Shown piece after piece: positions 48,786 to 57,505 of a stretch of 64,000 nt of DNA. The position numbers and the translations under genes were made by a program. The stretch lies in contig NZ_SJJZ01000003.1 in NCBI RefSeq assembly GCF_004331345.1, positions 124,001 through 188,000 on the forward strand, in the 5' to 3' direction. How positions within the stretch are numbered: position 1 is the first letter of the stretch; every line of letters begins with the position of its first letter. The notes beneath the pieces are model-generated. The model had not been told where the DNA came from. It worked only from the letters and a program-made list of their open reading frames with translations, and searched no databases. The stretch comes from Kribbella soli. Lineage in GTDB: Bacteria; Actinomycetota; Actinomycetes; Propionibacteriales; Kribbellaceae.

Positions 48786-50141
48786 TCAGCGTTGTGGCCG
48801 GTATGTTGTCAGTGACGTCCAGAGGGTCGCTTCGGTGAGCCCGGTGCGACTCAGCAGGATGCGGTCGCGGGAGGCCTGGTCGGTGCCGTTGCGCGCCATG
48901 TCCTCGTACAGCTCCTCGACCTGGCCCAGTCCGATCCGCTGCACGAGAAAGCGGACCGCCAGCCAGCTGACGCCGTACACGTCGGCGGAGTTCTGGTAGA
49001 AGCCCGCGTCGCTCGGCAAAGAGGTCAGCTGCGGTACGGCGTCGTCGACGATCTCCTGCTCCCACTTGCCGACCTCGTCCGGTCCGCTGACGGCCTCGAT
49101 ACCGCGCCAGGACACGTACTCGGCGGCGCCTTCGGCCAGCCACAGCGGCTCGTACCCGCCGAGGTCCGCGGTCGCGACGTGGGTGATCTCGTGCGACAGC
49201 AGGATCTCGTCGACCCGGTCGCGCTCGTTCGGGTTGATGACGACGTACCCGCCGGCGACCGTGCCGTCGGCGGTGTCCTGACCGGGCAGCGAGGAGAACG
49301 TCGTACCGGTACTCGCCGCGGACTCGATGTCCTCGTCGGCGAACTTGGCGTCGCGGACCTCGGTCTCGTCGAGCGCGATCACGAACACCGAGCCGGTCCA
49401 CTTCAACGGCCAGTACGTCGAGACCTCGTGGAGCCCCTCGGCCGCCTCGGTGGCGATCGCCCGGCCGCGGGTCGTGTCGCCCTTCTCCACGACGACGAGG
49501 ACACGCGAGCCGCGCTGCACCTCGATCCGGCCGAGGTCCCAGGCCTCGCGATGCGCGCCCGGCCCGAGGTCGCCGTCCAGTTCGTCGTCCGCGGTGAGCA
49601 GCCAGCGGCCGCCGCGAGCGATGAACGTGTAGCCGAGCTCGGTCGTCACGGGCGTGAAGTCGACCTTGGGGATCTGGTACCGCATCAGGATCCGGACCAG
49701 GTACGTCGTACCGCCGTGGGCCTTGAGGATGGCCGGATTGAAGCGCTCCTCGGCCTGGCTGTAGCCGAGTTCGGTGAAGCCGATCTCGACCAGGTTCGCG
49801 AACAGGATCTTCTGCGTTGCACGCAGTTTCTTGTTCGCCGGGTCGACGTCGGCCAGGAACAGCGCCTCGTTCCCGGTCTGCACGGCCTGCGCGCGGCGGA
49901 GCAGGATGGTGTCGATCGCGACCCGCCGAGCGGCGACCGCGGCGGCGATCCGGGACGGCTTCGTGGCCTTCGGCGGCGCCGGCGAAACGGTCTGCGTGGC
50001 GGCGGTCCGCTCACGGGCGTCCTGCTCGCGTTGTCCAACGGTGTAGACGACGCCACCCGACACGAGGGCAACCGCCAGCACCAGGCCGAGCCAGCGGCGG
50101 GGCCCAGCAGGCAGCCCTTCATTGGGCGTCGTCGCACTCAC
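48786..50141 (-). CDS. Membrane-anchored HExxH protein, paralog 2
   Basis: A 451-residue protein built like paralog 1: a membrane segment at about 14-34, a helical region (RRVAIDTILLRRAQAVQTGNEALFLADVD), then the zinc motif HEITH and WLAEGAAEY. GTG 50141 is preferred, with GGAGGGAA 11 nt upstream, over the in-frame GTG 50186. It lacks a recognisable sorting signal, so the N-terminal segment should be the anchor. Confidence 0.82.
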   Translation of the reverse strand: MSATTPNEGLPAGPRRWLGLVLAVALVSGGVVYTVGQREQDARERTAATQTVSPAPPKATKPSRIAAAVAARRVAIDTILLRRAQAVQTGNEALFLADVDPANKKLRATQKILFANLVEIGFTELGYSQAEERFNPAILKAHGGTTYLVRILMRYQIPKVDFTPVTTELGYTFIARGGRWLLTADDELDGDLGPGAHREAWDLGRIEVQRGSRVLVVVEKGDTTRGRAIATEAAEGLHEVSTYWPLKWTGSVFVIALDETEVRDAKFADEDIESAASTGTTFSSLPGQDTADGTVAGGYVVINPNERDRVDEILLSHEITHVATADLGGYEPLWLAEGAAEYVSWRGIEAVSGPDEVGKWEQEIVDDAVPQLTSLPSDAGFYQNSADVYGVSWLAVRFLVQRIGLGQVEELYEDMARNGTDQASRDRILLSRTGLTEATLWTSLTTYRPQR

Positions 50142-50206
50142 TTCGGGTCGTTCCCTCCGAGTACCCGATCGTTGCAGCCGGGCCACCCTACTCGACGCTT
50201 GCCGCT

Positions 50207-51541
50207 TTACGCTGCGGCTGCGGCCTTGAGCGCGCGGAAAAGTCCCGCCTCGGTCATCCCGAGGTGCTCGAGCATGATCCGGTCACGTTCCTTCTGGGAC
50301 GTGCCGAGCGCGGCCAGCTCGCGGTACAGCGTGCCGACCTCGACCCCGCCGAACCGCGTGAACAGGTAGTCGAGCGCCAGCCAGGACATCGGGTACGAGC
50401 TGTCGGCCTGGTCGAAGAACGTGTCGTCGGCGGGCAGGCTCTTCGCCTTCGCGAGGTACTTCGTCCGCACGTCCAGCCGGTACTGCGTGATCGCCAGATC
50501 CTTCTGCCCGTCCATCGGCAGGAACTCGACGTACGTCGCGGCGCCCTCGACCAGCCAGCGTGGAGCGTACGGGCCGTACGGCGCGGTGGCGACGTGGGTG
50601 AACTCGTGGGCCAGCGTGCGGGCGTCGACCTTGTTCCGGTTGTGCGGGTTCACGACGACGTACGAGTCGGCCCGCTGCCCCTCGCCGGTGACCTCGCCGG
50701 GCAGTGTGCGGTACACCCAGGTCGCCATCGCGAGCGCGTCCTCGGCGTTCTTCGGCTGCGTGTAGTCGGCGCCGCGGACGATCTTGTCGTCGAGCGCGAT
50801 CACCACGCCGGAACCGTTCCAGCCGCCGGGCCAGCTCTTCGAGACCGCCTTCACCGCACTGAGCGACATCGCGACGAACCTGTCCGCGAGTGCGTCCTGG
50901 CCCTTCTCCACGACGACGAGAACGCGTGCGGCGCGCTTCACGAGGACCGCGTCCATGTCCCAGGCTTCCTGGTGCGAACCGCGCGGCAGGCGCTTGTCCA
51001 GGTCGGAGTCGGAGACCAGCATCCAGGTGCCGTTGGGCCGAGAAGTGAAGGTGTAGCCGAGCATCGCGCGGACCGCTACCAGGTCGATGCTGCGGATCTG
51101 GTAGGTCATCGCGACGGCCACGAGGTACGTCGACGGGCCGTACTTCTGGGCGATCGTGTCGTCGTACTGCTGGGCCAGTTGCTGGTAGGTGAGCTTCGCG
51201 AAACCGAACTGGCGGAGGTTCGTGAACAGGGTGCGCTGGCTCGCGACGAGCCGCTTGTTGCCAGGGTCGACGTCGGCAAGGAACGCCTGCTCGTTGCCGG
51301 CGAGGACAGCGTCCGAGCGACGCTTCAGCACCTGGTCGACGGCCGCCGACCGCGCGGCCTGGTCGACCGTCGGCGTGCTGGTGGTGGTGTCGGCCGCACG
51401 ACCGTCGGACTGGCTCGAACGATGCAGGGCGAGACCGCCGGCCACCGCGACCACTACCAGGACGAGCGACAGCAGGACCGGCCAGACGCGCGATCGCCGG
51501 CGCGTGGCCGCGTGCCGGCTGTGTCGCCCTGCCTCCGCCAC
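50207..51541 (-). CDS. Membrane-anchored HExxH protein, paralog 3
   Basis: A 444-residue protein with a basic cytoplasmic start (HAATRRRSRVW), one membrane segment at about 20-40, and the shared helical region (RSAAVDQVLKRRSDAVLAGNEQAFLADVD). The zinc motif HEFTH and WLVEGAATY follow; the second Glu of the AEY group is Thr here, but the EG glutamate, the likely third zinc ligand, is kept. GTG 51541 lies 9 bp after the dxs stop on the same strand, so it may be transcribed with dxs. Confidence 0.82.
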   Translation of the reverse strand: MAEAGRHSRHAATRRRSRVWPVLLSLVLVVVAVAGGLALHRSSQSDGRAADTTTSTPTVDQAARSAAVDQVLKRRSDAVLAGNEQAFLADVDPGNKRLVASQRTLFTNLRQFGFAKLTYQQLAQQYDDTIAQKYGPSTYLVAVAMTYQIRSIDLVAVRAMLGYTFTSRPNGTWMLVSDSDLDKRLPRGSHQEAWDMDAVLVKRAARVLVVVEKGQDALADRFVAMSLSAVKAVSKSWPGGWNGSGVVIALDDKIVRGADYTQPKNAEDALAMATWVYRTLPGEVTGEGQRADSYVVVNPHNRNKVDARTLAHEFTHVATAPYGPYAPRWLVEGAATYVEFLPMDGQKDLAITQYRLDVRTKYLAKAKSLPADDTFFDQADSSYPMSWLALDYLFTRFGGVEVGTLYRELAALGTSQKERDRIMLEHLGMTEAGLFRALKAAAAA

Positions 51542-53550: not shown

Positions 53551-54057
53551 GTGGAGATGGTGAGGACCCTGTTCCGGAAGTACGACGGGCAGCCGCATCG
53601 GCTGGTCGAGGCGGTCCGGCTCGGCGAGGACGAGCACGGCCTCTGGGTCGGCTCCGCTCCCGGTACCCGCGGTCAGCGTGCGGACGGCAGCTGGACCACG
53701 ATCGACCACCACCGGGTCCGGCTGTTCCCGCACGGCCAGTGGTGGAGCGCGCTGTTCAACGACGAGCCGCATCAGACCGCGATCTACTGCGACATCACGA
53801 TGCCGGCCGAGTTCGGCGTCGACTCGGTCACCGCCGTCGACCTCGACCTCGACATCCGCCTGCTCCGCGACGGCACCGTGCACGTGATGGACGAGGACGA
53901 GTTCCACGAACACCAGGTCCGCTACAACTACCCGCCCCAGGTGATAGCCACTGCGCGGGCGACCTGCGACTTCCTCGCCACCACCATCACCACAGCAGAA
54001 CCGTTCGTCACGGCGTACAAGCCGTACCTCGAACAGATCCGCGCGCTCGCGCGGTAA
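53551..54057 (+). CDS. DUF402 (nucleoside-di/triphosphatase-like) protein, paralog 1
   Basis: A 168-residue beta-barrel protein of the DUF402/FomD-like family. Known members hydrolyse nucleotide phosphates with Mg2+/Mn2+ bound by acidic residues. The conserved stretch ALFNDEPHQTAIYCDIT is followed by VDLDLDIRLLRDGTVHVMDEDEFHEH, which supplies those acids. GTG 53551 is used; ATG 53557 is an alternative. It is about half identical by eye to the gene at 57011, and the two flank the DUF4132 pair. A 12-bp hairpin overlaps its stop codon. Confidence 0.85.
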   Translation: MEMVRTLFRKYDGQPHRLVEAVRLGEDEHGLWVGSAPGTRGQRADGSWTTIDHHRVRLFPHGQWWSALFNDEPHQTAIYCDITMPAEFGVDSVTAVDLDLDIRLLRDGTVHVMDEDEFHEHQVRYNYPPQVIATARATCDFLATTITTAEPFVTAYKPYLEQIRALAR

Positions 54058-54103: not shown

Positions 54104-54229
54104 CACGATGACGACCTCTGGGCCGGCACCCCACCATGCTCCGTCGCATTCCGCGATCGGTCCACTCCTCACAGCAAAGTTGCATGAAGTTGCAGAACCG
54201 CTGAGCCCCTGGAGGGCGGTCGGCTGACT

Positions 54230-54571
54230 ATGCTGCGGCGGGTGGGGATCACGGTGAAGATCGTTGATGTGTCGGGGGCAGGGCGGGTCGGTACGACGAC
54301 GCTGCTGGAGGGGGTTTCGAGCAGGATCACGCTGCGCGACCTGGTCCTGACGCGTGTCCGGGACGAAGTGGCGCGCTTCAACGCCGCGCCGGACAAACAG
54401 CGGCACCTCGACTGGGAGCGGCAGGCGGATCGGGCGATCGAGGCGTTCGGACGCAACGGGTTCTTCGTGCTGGTCGACGACCGGCAGGTGACCGAGCTCG
54501 ACGAGGAACTCGAGCTGACCGCGGACTCCGACATCCGCTTCGTCCACCTGATTCAGCTGGTCGGCGGCTGA
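54230..54571 (+). CDS. Small beta-grasp (ubiquitin/MoaD/ThiS-like) candidate ending in Gly-Gly
   Basis: A 113-residue protein with no recognised family. I see a first strand (GITVKIVDVSG), then a strand and long amphipathic helix (RITLRDLVLTRVRDEVARFN). A charged insert precedes FFVLVDDRQVTELDEELEL, then DIRFVHLIQLVGG at the very end. The order of elements and the exposed C-terminal Gly-Gly resemble ubiquitin-like and sulfur-carrier proteins. This is inference from pattern, not a database hit. Its stop lies 2 nt before the DUF4132 start. ATG 54230 overlaps a TATGCT -10-like box whose spacing would favour GTG 54242 (four codons later) as a leaderless start. Confidence 0.7.
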   Translation: MLRRVGITVKIVDVSGAGRVGTTTLLEGVSSRITLRDLVLTRVRDEVARFNAAPDKQRHLDWERQADRAIEAFGRNGFFVLVDDRQVTELDEELELTADSDIRFVHLIQLVGG

Positions 54572-54573
54572 GC

Positions 54574-56985
54574 ATGGCAGGCGACGGTGAGGCGGCCGCG
54601 CTGGTGGCCGCGGCGCTGCAGACCCTTCGTAGCCGGTCCTGGACAGCTGACGGAGACGCGCGGGCGATGCCCGAGATCCAGGCGATCCTGCAGGCCACGG
54701 ACGCACTACGGCTGGAGTGCATCCTGACCGTCTCGGAGCAGGTCGACAGCTATCACTGCGCCCAACTGTTGTCGGTGATCGCGCGGAAGCGCGTCCAGCT
54801 CACGGCGGAGCACATCGAACGGTTGCTGACCCTGCGCATCGGGCAGTTCGAGCAGTCCCAGGCATGGCGGAGCAGCGAGGCGCTCCGCGCGGTGAGCCGC
54901 CAGATCGAGCACGCGTACGCCGCGCTTCCCGGCGCCGAGCAGGAGCCTTTGAAACCACTCCTCGCGTGTGCGGCCGAGCAGGTTCAGGACGCGGCGACGG
55001 CGACCAGGCTGCGGAAACTCGTAGGCGATGAGGACGGGCTCCGCGTCGACCTGATCGACGAGAGCGACGACATCGGCCCTCGCCTGCGCAGCGCGTTCGA
55101 GGCAGCCGACGAACCGGCCGAAGCGCTTGCGGCGGCACTCGATCTCCTCGCGGCGTTTCCCGCCCAGGGCAAGCCGTCGAAGAAGTGGCTCACCGAGGCC
55201 GAGCGCGTCACCAGCCTGTTGTCCAAGCCCGCGGCTCTGATCGGCACCCTCCTCGACGCGGCGCTCGACGCGGCCGACATCGAACCGCAGCGCACCACCG
55301 CCGTCACCCGCTACATCACCGCGGGCAACGAGTCCTTCCTGTGTGGCGTTGTCGCAATCGCCGGCGTACTGCGGGACTCGACGCTCCTGCCGCAGCTCCG
55401 GCGGCTCGCGATCAAGACGGTGACCGTGATCGGAGGCCAGTTCGGCAATCCTCGAAGCCTCCGGCTCGCCAACTCGTCGGCGCAGGCGATGGCCGATATC
55501 GGCGGGGCGTCGTCGATCACCGAGTTGCTCGCGCTCGAGCGTTCCGTTCGGCACGGGACGCTGCTGAGGCAGATCCGCAAGGCCATCGACGCGCTCGCCT
55601 CCGCGCAGGGACTGACCCGCGACCAGCTGCTGGAGCGCGCCGTCGAAACCCATGACCTCGACGCCGACGGCAAGCGCCGACAACCGCTGACGCGGGGATC
55701 GGCCGAGGTCGTGGTGGACGGACGGACGGCAGCACTTCTGTACGTCGACGAGAAGCAGACTCCCCGGAAGTCGGTACCTCCGGACGTGAAGCAGGCAGAT
55801 GCCGAAACGCTCGGCGCGCTCCGCAACGAGCTCAAGGCGATCCGGAAGACGATCGCCGGCGAGCGCGTGCGGCTGGACGGCCTGATGGCAACGGACCGCC
55901 GCTGGCCGCTGGGCAACTGGCGCACCTGGTACCTGGATCATCCGATCACCGGCCGGATGACACGCACGCTGGTCTGGGTGTTCAGCACCCCGGAAGGTCC
56001 GGACGTCGTCGGAGTTCCCCTCGATGCCGCGACGGTGATCACGAGTTCGGGTCAGCAGGCCGGGATTCCGCCGGACGCGGAGGTGCGGCTCTGGCACCCG
56101 ATCCACGCAACGGCCGACGACGTACGCGCCTGGCGACGGTACTTGCTCGAGCAGCAGGTCGTTCAGCCGTTCAAGCAGGCGTTCCGCGAGCTCTACGTGC
56201 TGACGCCTGCCGAGGAACAGACCCGCGCGTACTCGAACCGTTTCGCCGGTCACGTCTTCGGGCAGGTCCAGGCCCGTGCGTTGATGAAAGGGCGGGGCTG
56301 GGCGCCGGTCGCGGTCGCCTGGTGGGACGACGGTATCGACCACGGCGTTGCCCGGCGTACCTTCGACGCCGCCGGGATCCGCGCCGAGTTCTACTTCGAC
56401 CCGATCCACGACCTGGAGCCGGCCGCGACCGATCTCTACCCGTACTGCACCAGCGATCAGGTGCGGTTCGTCGACGTACGGACCGATGACTCGATCGGGC
56501 TCGCCGACGTGCCGCCGCTCGTCCTGACCGAGGCGCTGCGTGACGTCGACCTGTTCGTCGGCGTCACGTCGATCGGCGCCGATCCGGAATGGCTCGACCG
56601 TGGCACCGAGCGTCGCTTCGAGACGTACTGGCATACGTTCGGCTTCGGCGAACTGTCCGCCGCCGGCGAGATCCGCCGCGAGGTGCTCGAACAACTCGTC
56701 CCGCGGCTGGCCATCGCCGACCGGTGCGCGTTCGAGGACCGCTACCTGACGGTGCGCGGCGACCTCCGGACGTACCGGATCCATCTGGGCAGCGGCAACA
56801 TCCTGATGTCGCCGAACGACCAGTACCTCTGCATCGTCGCCGCCCGGGACAGCCAGGCGCAGAAGCTGTTCCTCCCCTTCGACGACGACCCGGTCCTCAG
56901 CCTGGTGCTCAGCAAGGCGTTCCTGCTCGCGAACGACACGGCGATCGAGGACCCCACGATCACCGCCCAGATCAACCGTCGCTGA
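54574..56985 (+). CDS. DUF4132 domain protein (MolR/YehI-like)
   Basis: An 803-residue cytoplasmic protein. Residues about 1-330 are helical and HEAT-like (for example VVAIAGVLRDSTLLPQLRRLA, then ANSSAQAMADIGG). The DUF4132 core follows from about 435 (WRTWYLDHPITGRMTRTLVWVF, VRLWHPIHATADDVRAWRRYL, QPFKQAFRELYVLTPAEEQT, YSNRFAGHVF). It ends with a domain typical of the family tail (GSGNILMSPNDQYLCIVA, LFLPFDDDPVLSLVLSKAFLL). The family includes E. coli MolR/YehI, and its biochemical role is unresolved. No WGR domain is present. It is translated with the Gly-Gly protein. A TAGGTT hexamer after the stop starts the next unit. Confidence 0.85.
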   Translation: MAGDGEAAALVAAALQTLRSRSWTADGDARAMPEIQAILQATDALRLECILTVSEQVDSYHCAQLLSVIARKRVQLTAEHIERLLTLRIGQFEQSQAWRSSEALRAVSRQIEHAYAALPGAEQEPLKPLLACAAEQVQDAATATRLRKLVGDEDGLRVDLIDESDDIGPRLRSAFEAADEPAEALAAALDLLAAFPAQGKPSKKWLTEAERVTSLLSKPAALIGTLLDAALDAADIEPQRTTAVTRYITAGNESFLCGVVAIAGVLRDSTLLPQLRRLAIKTVTVIGGQFGNPRSLRLANSSAQAMADIGGASSITELLALERSVRHGTLLRQIRKAIDALASAQGLTRDQLLERAVETHDLDADGKRRQPLTRGSAEVVVDGRTAALLYVDEKQTPRKSVPPDVKQADAETLGALRNELKAIRKTIAGERVRLDGLMATDRRWPLGNWRTWYLDHPITGRMTRTLVWVFSTPEGPDVVGVPLDAATVITSSGQQAGIPPDAEVRLWHPIHATADDVRAWRRYLLEQQVVQPFKQAFRELYVLTPAEEQTRAYSNRFAGHVFGQVQARALMKGRGWAPVAVAWWDDGIDHGVARRTFDAAGIRAEFYFDPIHDLEPAATDLYPYCTSDQVRFVDVRTDDSIGLADVPPLVLTEALRDVDLFVGVTSIGADPEWLDRGTERRFETYWHTFGFGELSAAGEIRREVLEQLVPRLAIADRCAFEDRYLTVRGDLRTYRIHLGSGNILMSPNDQYLCIVAARDSQAQKLFLPFDDDPVLSLVLSKAFLLANDTAIEDPTITAQINRR

Positions 56986-57010: not shown

Positions 57011-57505
57011 ATGCGTGATGTGCGGGTGGTCTATCGCAAGTTCGACGAGAAGCTGCATTGGCACCAGTGGATGCGGTACCTGGGCGAGGACGAGTACGGC
57101 GTCTGGCTGGGCGCCCCGGCGGGGTCCGTGTCGCAACGCGGGGACGAGCCGGCGGTGACCCAGGAGCAGGCGCATGTGCAGCTGTTCCCGCGGGACAAGT
57201 GGTTCACCGCGATCTTCAACGACGAGCCGCGGCACACCGAGATCTACGCGGACATCACCACGCCGGTCGAGTTCTCCGACGACGTGGTGACGATGATCGA
57301 CCTCGACCTGGACGTGATCAAGCGCCGCGACGGGACCGTCTTCATCGACGACGAGGACGAGTTCGCCGAGCACCAGGTGAAGTACAGCTACCCGCCCGAC
57401 GTGATCGCCACCGCACGGCAGACCTGCGACTGGCTCGTCGGCGCGGTGTCCACCGACGAGCCCTTCCTGACCGTCTACAAGACCCACCTCGACAAGATCC
57501 GCTAG
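57011..57505 (+). CDS. DUF402 protein, paralog 2
   Basis: A 164-residue paralog of the gene at 53551, with the same AIFNDEPRHTEIYADIT and IDLDLDVIKRRDGTVFIDDEDEFAEH stretches and the same C-terminal VIATARQTCDWL helix. The acidic metal-binding positions are kept, so it should also be a nucleotide phosphohydrolase-like protein. It stands in the same orientation as the DUF4132 pair and closes the block. Confidence 0.85.
   Translation: MRDVRVVYRKFDEKLHWHQWMRYLGEDEYGVWLGAPAGSVSQRGDEPAVTQEQAHVQLFPRDKWFTAIFNDEPRHTEIYADITTPVEFSDDVVTMIDLDLDVIKRRDGTVFIDDEDEFAEHQVKYSYPPDVIATARQTCDWLVGAVSTDEPFLTVYKTHLDKIR

Follow-up and report, generated by a model that had tools for sequence, protein, structure and literature searches.

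A Gly-Gly-ending ubiquitin-like protein encoded with a DUF4132-DUF7737 partner in Kribbella soli and other bacteria

MoaD, ThiS, Urm1, SAMP and ubiquitin combine a beta-grasp fold with a free terminal Gly-Gly, and the same combination is predicted for a small ubiquitin-like (Ubl) protein of Kribbella soli, whose gene is directly followed by a gene for a DUF4132 protein. The pair lies in a stretch of 64,000 nucleotides, referred to here as the window. The original prediction, made from this stretch, took the small protein for a ubiquitin/ThiS/MoaD-type protein and its neighbor for a possible enzyme, carrier or target of such a modifier. The locus therefore raises the question of whether the small protein has this fold and what its tail and its partner could do together. 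The features of the locus are as follows.

54242 to 54571, + strand: Ubl gene, encoding a 109-amino acid predicted beta-grasp protein with a Gly-Gly end; GTG start, with ATG 54230 as the alternative
54563 to 54568, + strand: codons of the C-terminal Gly-Gly
54574 to 56985, + strand: partner gene, encoding an 803-amino acid DUF4132-DUF7737 protein of the short architecture
55765 to 56301, + strand: DUF4132 domain (residues 398-576), with the conserved motif QPFKQ..RE.Y
56668 to 56973, + strand: DUF7737 domain (residues 699-800)
56830 to 56832, + strand: codon of Cys753, the residue that covaries with the Gly-Gly tail
56782 to 56784, + strand: codon of His737 (in IHLGS), retained both in pairs ending in Gly-Gly (GG) and in pairs ending in Gly-x-x-Trp (GxxW)
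54204 to 56984, no strand assigned: cassette of about 2.77 kb, missing at the same site of sibling genomes

The reading frame at 54230-54571 (113 amino acids) ends in Gly-Gly followed by a stop, as can be read directly in the sequence, where its last codons are GGC GGC TGA (54563-54571). The 2-nt spacing between this stop and the partner ATG at 54574 was also confirmed. The gene stands where it had been placed, but its start does not. ATG 54230 is out of frame in all five other Kribbella loci (L010-L014), whereas a GTG at the beginning of GITVKI/SITVKI is common to the Kribbella loci (ATG in L014), so GTG 54242, which gives 109 amino acids, is the better start. The partner was matched by Pfam to DUF4132 (9.5e-49) and DUF7737 (4e-42), and the small protein had no Pfam family above the cut-off. 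Judging by genome searches, the two-gene cassette is rare in bacteria.

The fold of the small protein was predicted with AlphaFold2 from 26 family rows (pLDDT 85, pTM 0.73). The model contains strands at residues 3-10, 16-25, 28-30, 74-78, 81-83, 89-91 and 97-102 and helices at 31-48 and 58-70, in agreement with the strand-helix-strand order first proposed, and its last three residues have pLDDT below 50. The first five Foldseek matches in the PDB were a ubiquitin variant, 5mpo_B, ISG15, ubiquitin with Uba6, and 1wgk, with E of 5e-3 to 6e-3 (none below 0.001) and probability of 0.96-1.00. Superantigen-like proteins followed from rank 6 on and PI3K chains from rank 12 on. 5mpo_B is a chain of human molybdopterin synthase, which we take from its length to be the MoaD-type subunit, and 1wgk is presumably Urm1. 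VIA-align gave Z 9.3 for 5mpo_A of human molybdopterin synthase (rmsd 2.9 over 78) and for two other ubiquitin-fold chains, Z 8.3 for ISG15 (rmsd 1.9 over 71) and Z 8.2 for ubiquitin 6w9s_B (rmsd 1.9 over 73); a Z of about 8 may reflect a common arrangement, and the rows listed here are mostly ubiquitin or ubiquitin-like chains. The ubiquitin alignments extend to ubiquitin residue 75 or 76, that is, into the tail, and the ubiquitin-fold protein Hub1 is also among the VIA-align matches. The small protein is, on its model, of the ubiquitin/MoaD-type beta-grasp fold, as originally predicted. It differs from MoaD, ThiS, Urm1, SAMP and ubiquitin in having no Pfam or NCBIfam match to their families: ThiS/MoaD and ubiquitin profiles gave no match to the window protein at E up to 1, nor, in Pfam, to six of its relatives at E up to 0.5.

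Ubl homologues were found in 7 of 97 genomes of relatives, in 6 of 38 within the genus Kribbella, and in 18 of 396 genomes of the phylum, eight of these 18 being of a kind that lacks the Gly-Gly. Further genomes yielded 28 Ubl loci, which were retrieved by peptide patterns that exclude the tail, and later also members from Deinococcus, Novosphingobium and Nonomuraea. Since 27 of the 28 relatives fetched in this way end exactly in Gly-Gly-stop, the terminal Gly-Gly is beyond chance; the remaining one, L052, enters masked N after its Gly-Gly. Similarity to DUF4132 partners lies downstream in 27 of the 28, the exception again being L052, which is masked there, and the partner is truncated in L050, L055 and L059, where the contig or locus stops. 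GG pairs come from eight phyla (Actinomycetota, Planctomycetota, Armatimonadota, Chloroflexota, Bacteroidota, Cyanobacteriota, Deinococcota and Pseudomonadota). In most Ubl members the helices are separated by about 22 additional residues that are absent from the window protein, and the partner occurs in a short form of about 800 amino acids and a long form of about 1650 amino acids with DUF5724. Among 47 complete pairs of the window class, 46 end in GG and one in GGA. The conservation of the terminal Gly-Gly that had been anticipated is therefore borne out in the first relatives and in the complete pairs, and homologues without it also exist. Seven long-form pairs of Bacteroidota end in GSYW (three), GTYW, GAYW, GSIW and GRLW. 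In addition, solitary paralogues without GG occur at eight loci (L025-L028, L030-L033), all from a single actinobacterial family, with no partner in their flanks (about 1.5 kb for all eight, about 5-7 kb for four). G193, of the same family, has the GG form with a partner. The seven GxxW pairs, the single GGA and the GG-less solitary paralogues weaken a simple reading of the protein as a GG modifier, and they fulfil in part what the original prediction had named as grounds for its own refutation.

The original prediction called for a survey of actinobacterial DUF4132 loci for the small partner. The link between the small protein and DUF4132 proteins held in such a survey, in a narrower form: by sequence, pairing with the Ubl is specific to DUF4132 proteins that carry a C-terminal DUF7737. 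In 296 actinobacterial genomes, 17 DUF4132 places were found. Eight of them are Ubl-linked, and a profile made from the final 459 partner residues matched Ubl-linked proteins to their end. One more (G224:3583247) has DUF7737 and no adjacent Ubl. In the other eight, the profile matched only partially, DUF7737 is missing and the flanks, short in two cases, showed no Ubl; one of these eight has WGR, and two (L080, L083) have a MoxR-type AAA gene by Pfam. The DUF4132 domain is thus common to the window partner and to the WGR-DUF4132 (MolR type) and MoxR-associated proteins, but the examined members of the latter two kinds have neither DUF7737 nor its Cys, and no Ubl was found nearby. The window partner has no N-terminal WGR domain by Pfam, a test that recognized a true WGR-DUF4132, and no MoxR-type AAA gene is adjacent to the window pair.

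Searches for DUF7737 gave 39 genes in total. The 28 that were judged exclude the window, eight loci chosen through their Ubl, and G495:C94 and G824, which are cut upstream by contig ends. A Ubl lies directly upstream of 24 of these 28 genes, all found without using the Ubl, and is not adjacent in four (G224:3582590, G495:C378, G495:C182:4 and G788). In G824, a GG Ubl lies on a separate contig, followed by transposase-like ORFs (identified by eye) and the contig end. DUF7737 is rare, with 7/247, 6/246, 6/194 and 4/151 genomes in four phyla, where each sample includes one center genome chosen for having the gene, and it was found in none of 14 control genomes.

A single residue of the partner follows the tail. 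Cys is present at the column of window Cys753 in all 47 pairs of the GG/GGA class and in none of the seven GxxW pairs, which have Ser (5), Asn (1) or Ala (1) instead. Among the 45 columns with at least 95% conservation in the 47 pairs, no other is missing from every GxxW pair; 41 are kept in six or seven of them, and only two or three retain Pro165, Pro303 and Pro403 (A6 numbering). Conserved columns with His, Lys, Arg or an acidic residue are intact in all seven, and an invariant His lies 16 residues before the invariant Cys in DUF7737. Eleven of the 65 aligned rows were left out of this count: six without an adjacent Ubl (L079, L101, L105, L111, L117, L119), four partial or duplicate (L058, L065, L069 and the second piece of L104) and one broken gene (L104). 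GG and Cys are both present in L058, L065 and L104. The window partner with its Cys753, and L137 (GG, Cys), stand outside the 47. In a quick tree built without the Cys753 column, the GxxW rows form one clade (SH-aLRT 100), and the tail and the Cys each change once. The covariation, perfect in the rows, is therefore one independent event, and fewer than six independent pairs are too few for statistical significance.

Partner genes that have no adjacent Ubl were also compared and fit the same pattern, though not cleanly. Five of them keep the Cys (L079, L111, L119, L141 and, at a contig end, L101), and a GG Ubl occurs elsewhere in each of their genomes; the four that were aligned keep all 45 conserved columns. 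The G788 partner has Asp at the Cys753 column, and no Ubl was found in that assembly. A partner copy on an Acetobacter plasmid has Phe there, and a search of the plasmid alone found no Ubl on it. These two partners are on very long branches and keep 27 and 34 of the 45 conserved columns, respectively.

The last 459 residues of the partner were modelled with pLDDT 84.1 and pTM 0.68. There was no clear PDB fold match (best E 0.09, probability 0.07), a second structural comparison reached Z 5.4 at best, no viral match came under E 0.001, and the best match of the partner sequence to the PDB had E 0.34. The modelled part may have a new fold, for which the evidence is weak because a model of more than 400 residues was taken undivided into domains. 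No known catalytic motif was found in the partner. In contrast to the partners of MoaD, ThiS and ubiquitin-type systems, it had no Pfam match to E1, MoaE, ThiG or a thiolation enzyme.

The absence of E1, E2 and JAB genes noted in the window extends to the family, as none recurs beside the pair in 44 loci, where representatives of recurrent families were identified by Pfam. No neighbor family at all lies beside more than five of the 44 loci, according to a rough gene caller and BLASTP; Pfam assigned representatives of the recurrent neighbors to histidine kinases, a response regulator, MMPL, TetR and ABC proteins. The Ubl conjugation operons of bacterial conflict systems likewise place a small Ubl in an accessory operon, but they carry E1, E2, JAB and RING genes, according to the available part of PMC7159879, and none of these recurs beside pairs of the window type. 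Neither the window pair nor the D. radiodurans pair had a match in PADLOC, within its library's coverage of Ubl systems.

The closest known system is in Deinococcus radiodurans, where a 134-amino acid protein ending in LTALAGG is followed by a DUF5724-DUF4132-DUF7737 protein with the Cys. The pair comes after trxC, with modA and thiS no more than 6 kb downstream. It is equated here with DRA0165-DRA0166 (SEP068184 / DR_A0165) because the gene order (trxC, small gene, DUF4132) is that of the published work; the locus tags differ. The two genes and their order are the same as in the window, but the partner is the long form with DUF5724, whereas the window partner is short. The available text of PMC8533742 places a radiation/desiccation motif at -83 of the drA0165-drA0166 operon and reports that the operon is upregulated by DdrO depletion and that DRA0166-V5 increases after mitomycin C in an IrrE-dependent manner. 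In the corresponding excerpts of PMC9650054, SEP068184 (DR_A0165) increases after gamma rays and peroxide, its deletion leads to higher survival under peroxide, and it is pulled down with Trx1. The two sources, as far as these parts go, disagree on the motif.

DRA0165 was recovered with both C-terminal and N-terminal tags, and 157 co-purified proteins were common to all four pull-down sets (PMC9650054, in the part available). This pattern does not look like conjugation that depends on the Gly-Gly. In the same excerpts, a model of the Deinococcus orthologue is said to resemble structures of molybdopterin synthase. In the accessible sections of PMC8533742/PMC9650054, DRA0165 is a stress peptide not conserved outside Deinococcus, a statement contradicted by the homologous sequences found here. 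Those sections do not tie DRA0165 to a Gly-Gly tail or to DUF7737, and they mention no conjugate. Among the matches listed from the open-licence literature, no description of a Ubl with a DUF4132-DUF7737 protein was found; DUF4132 also occurs in PMC9334617 and PMC11674859.

The sequences and the model indicate a Ubl whose tail needs no processing, encoded together with a DUF4132-DUF7737 partner. It can be hypothesized, tentatively, that the two proteins form a self-contained Ubl system with covalent chemistry between the Ubl and Cys753, a reading that we prefer to the others but regard as no more than possible. The flexible tail would insert into a partner pocket, and the terminal glycine would undergo covalent chemistry in which the DUF7737 residue Cys753 participates; the simplest form would be a Ubl-S-Cys thioester, and we infer this step. 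From the thioester the Ubl could be handed on to a target, or the adduct could persist in a regulated manner. Activation of the glycine could fall to the partner itself or to a housekeeping E1 such as MoeB/ThiF. The tail of GxxW pairs may still dock, through its terminal Trp, without the covalent step. The Deinococcus module is under DNA-damage control, and a role in stress may apply outside Deinococcus as well. In a bolder form, which is unlikely, DUF4132-DUF7737 proteins would be a new class of Ubl transferase with a fold unrelated to E1, E2 and known E3, which alone activate or receive the GG Ubl as a DUF7737-Cys thioester and modify targets in DNA-damage or oxidative stress, so that two genes would make up a complete Ubl system.

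The small protein could instead act non-covalently, as a subunit with a structural or regulatory task that inserts its tail like a plug into a partner pocket, with GG and GxxW as two docking forms and the Cys as a packing change that accompanies the larger tail. This somewhat doubtful explanation draws on the GxxW pairs, all seven of which end in Trp and persist without the Cys, on the single evolutionary event behind the change of Cys and tail, and on the presence among the fold matches of Hub1, which is not known to act by conjugation. However, packing fails to explain why GG (46/47) and Cys (47/47) are retained together across eight phyla and two partner architectures. The invariant Cys, with its invariant His 16 residues before, and the absence of the Cys from the GxxW pairs would also suit a Cys peptidase, in which DUF7737 would be a deconjugase or a processing peptidase for the Ubl. 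This is very unlikely, as GG is already terminal in nearly all primary products and processing is unneeded, no conjugating enzyme recurs beside the pair, and the His stays where the Cys is gone.

A quite unlikely alternative is a sulfur carrier. As in MoaD, ThiS and Urm1, the Ubl would bear a thiocarboxylate at its C terminus, installed by a sulfurtransferase together with a housekeeping E1, and Cys753 would make an acyl disulfide or take sulfur for a modification made by the DUF4132 protein. The best fold matches include a MoaD-type chain, the Deinococcus orthologue was modelled like molybdopterin synthase and Trx1 binding was reported (PMC9650054, excerpts), and trxC, modA and thiS are near the D. 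radiodurans pair. However, the 44 loci show no recurrent trx, thi or mod family next to the pair, and the partner has no match to MoaE, ThiG or a thiolation enzyme. On the findings as a whole, a Ubl family that has no Pfam entry gains a partner and a candidate catalytic residue, and one kind of DUF4132 protein is set apart from the others. An unexplained DNA-damage operon of D. radiodurans becomes a testable Ubl system without neighboring E1, E2 or JAB genes, and the idea is testable now because that operon is induced by DNA damage and has published phenotypes. If the partner does the chemistry itself, Ubl attachment would have another route in addition to the E1 cascade and the Pup ligase.

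The module is accessory. Both genes flanking the window pair are DUF402 by Pfam, and five of the six Kribbella cassettes lie between two DUF402 genes, which are about 30-300 bp apart in 12 other Kribbella genomes and at another distance or on different contigs in the remaining ones. In G025, where the cassette is missing, the matches to the left and right flanks adjoin and share 8 nt, with 98% identity at the second DUF402 protein. No DUF402 match was found in the 13 kb around the G022 cassette. None of the phage records contained the C-terminal part of the long-form partner. In a plasmid collection, the window C-terminal query matched 17 records, in most of which the DUF4132 is reduced or of another kind, the long-form query matched seven, and the Ubl queries matched two and one.

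The cassette, composed of the gene for the ubiquitin-like protein (Ubl) and its DUF4132-DUF7737 partner gene, is bordered in the window by two DUF402 paralogues with ~53% identity to each other:

53551-54057, DUF402 paralogue 1, cassette flank
57011-57505, DUF402 paralogue 2, cassette flank

The same two DUF402 genes are closely adjacent in 12 cassette-free sibling genomes.

Ubl and partner genes also occur apart or in unequal number. In an Armatimonadota genome (G495; L041/L141, L111, L112, L142), five DUF7737 genes or pieces were found versus only two Ubl genes. In G824, the partner gene lies on a different contig from the Gly-Gly Ubl of L143 (G824:C12:8500-12618), which is followed immediately downstream by transposase-like ORFs, by eye of the IS200/IS605 type. 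Locus L079 (G224:C1:3577000-3595000) holds a DUF4132-DUF7737 gene that has no Ubl of its own and is divergently adjoined by a WGR-DUF4132 gene. MoxR-type AAA genes adjoin DUF4132 genes at L080, which additionally carries DUF5682, and at L083.

Solitary Ubl relatives from one actinobacterial family (L025-L028, L030-L033) lack Gly-Gly, and the partner was not found beside them within the flanks read (~1.5 kb for all, ~5-7 kb for four). Three Ubl copies are odd (L109 in G950, L024/L065 in G354, L107 in G959): one terminates in Gly-Gly-Ala, one retains KLVPLVGG with the sheet partly missing, and one is broken across two frames or by a stop.

Elsewhere in the window are tandem paralogues with HExxH-like motifs, identified by eye only:

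48786-50186, minus strand, tandem paralogue
50207-51541, minus strand, tandem paralogue

Their motifs, SHEITHVAT and AHEFTHVAT, suggest that they are perhaps zinc peptidase-like.
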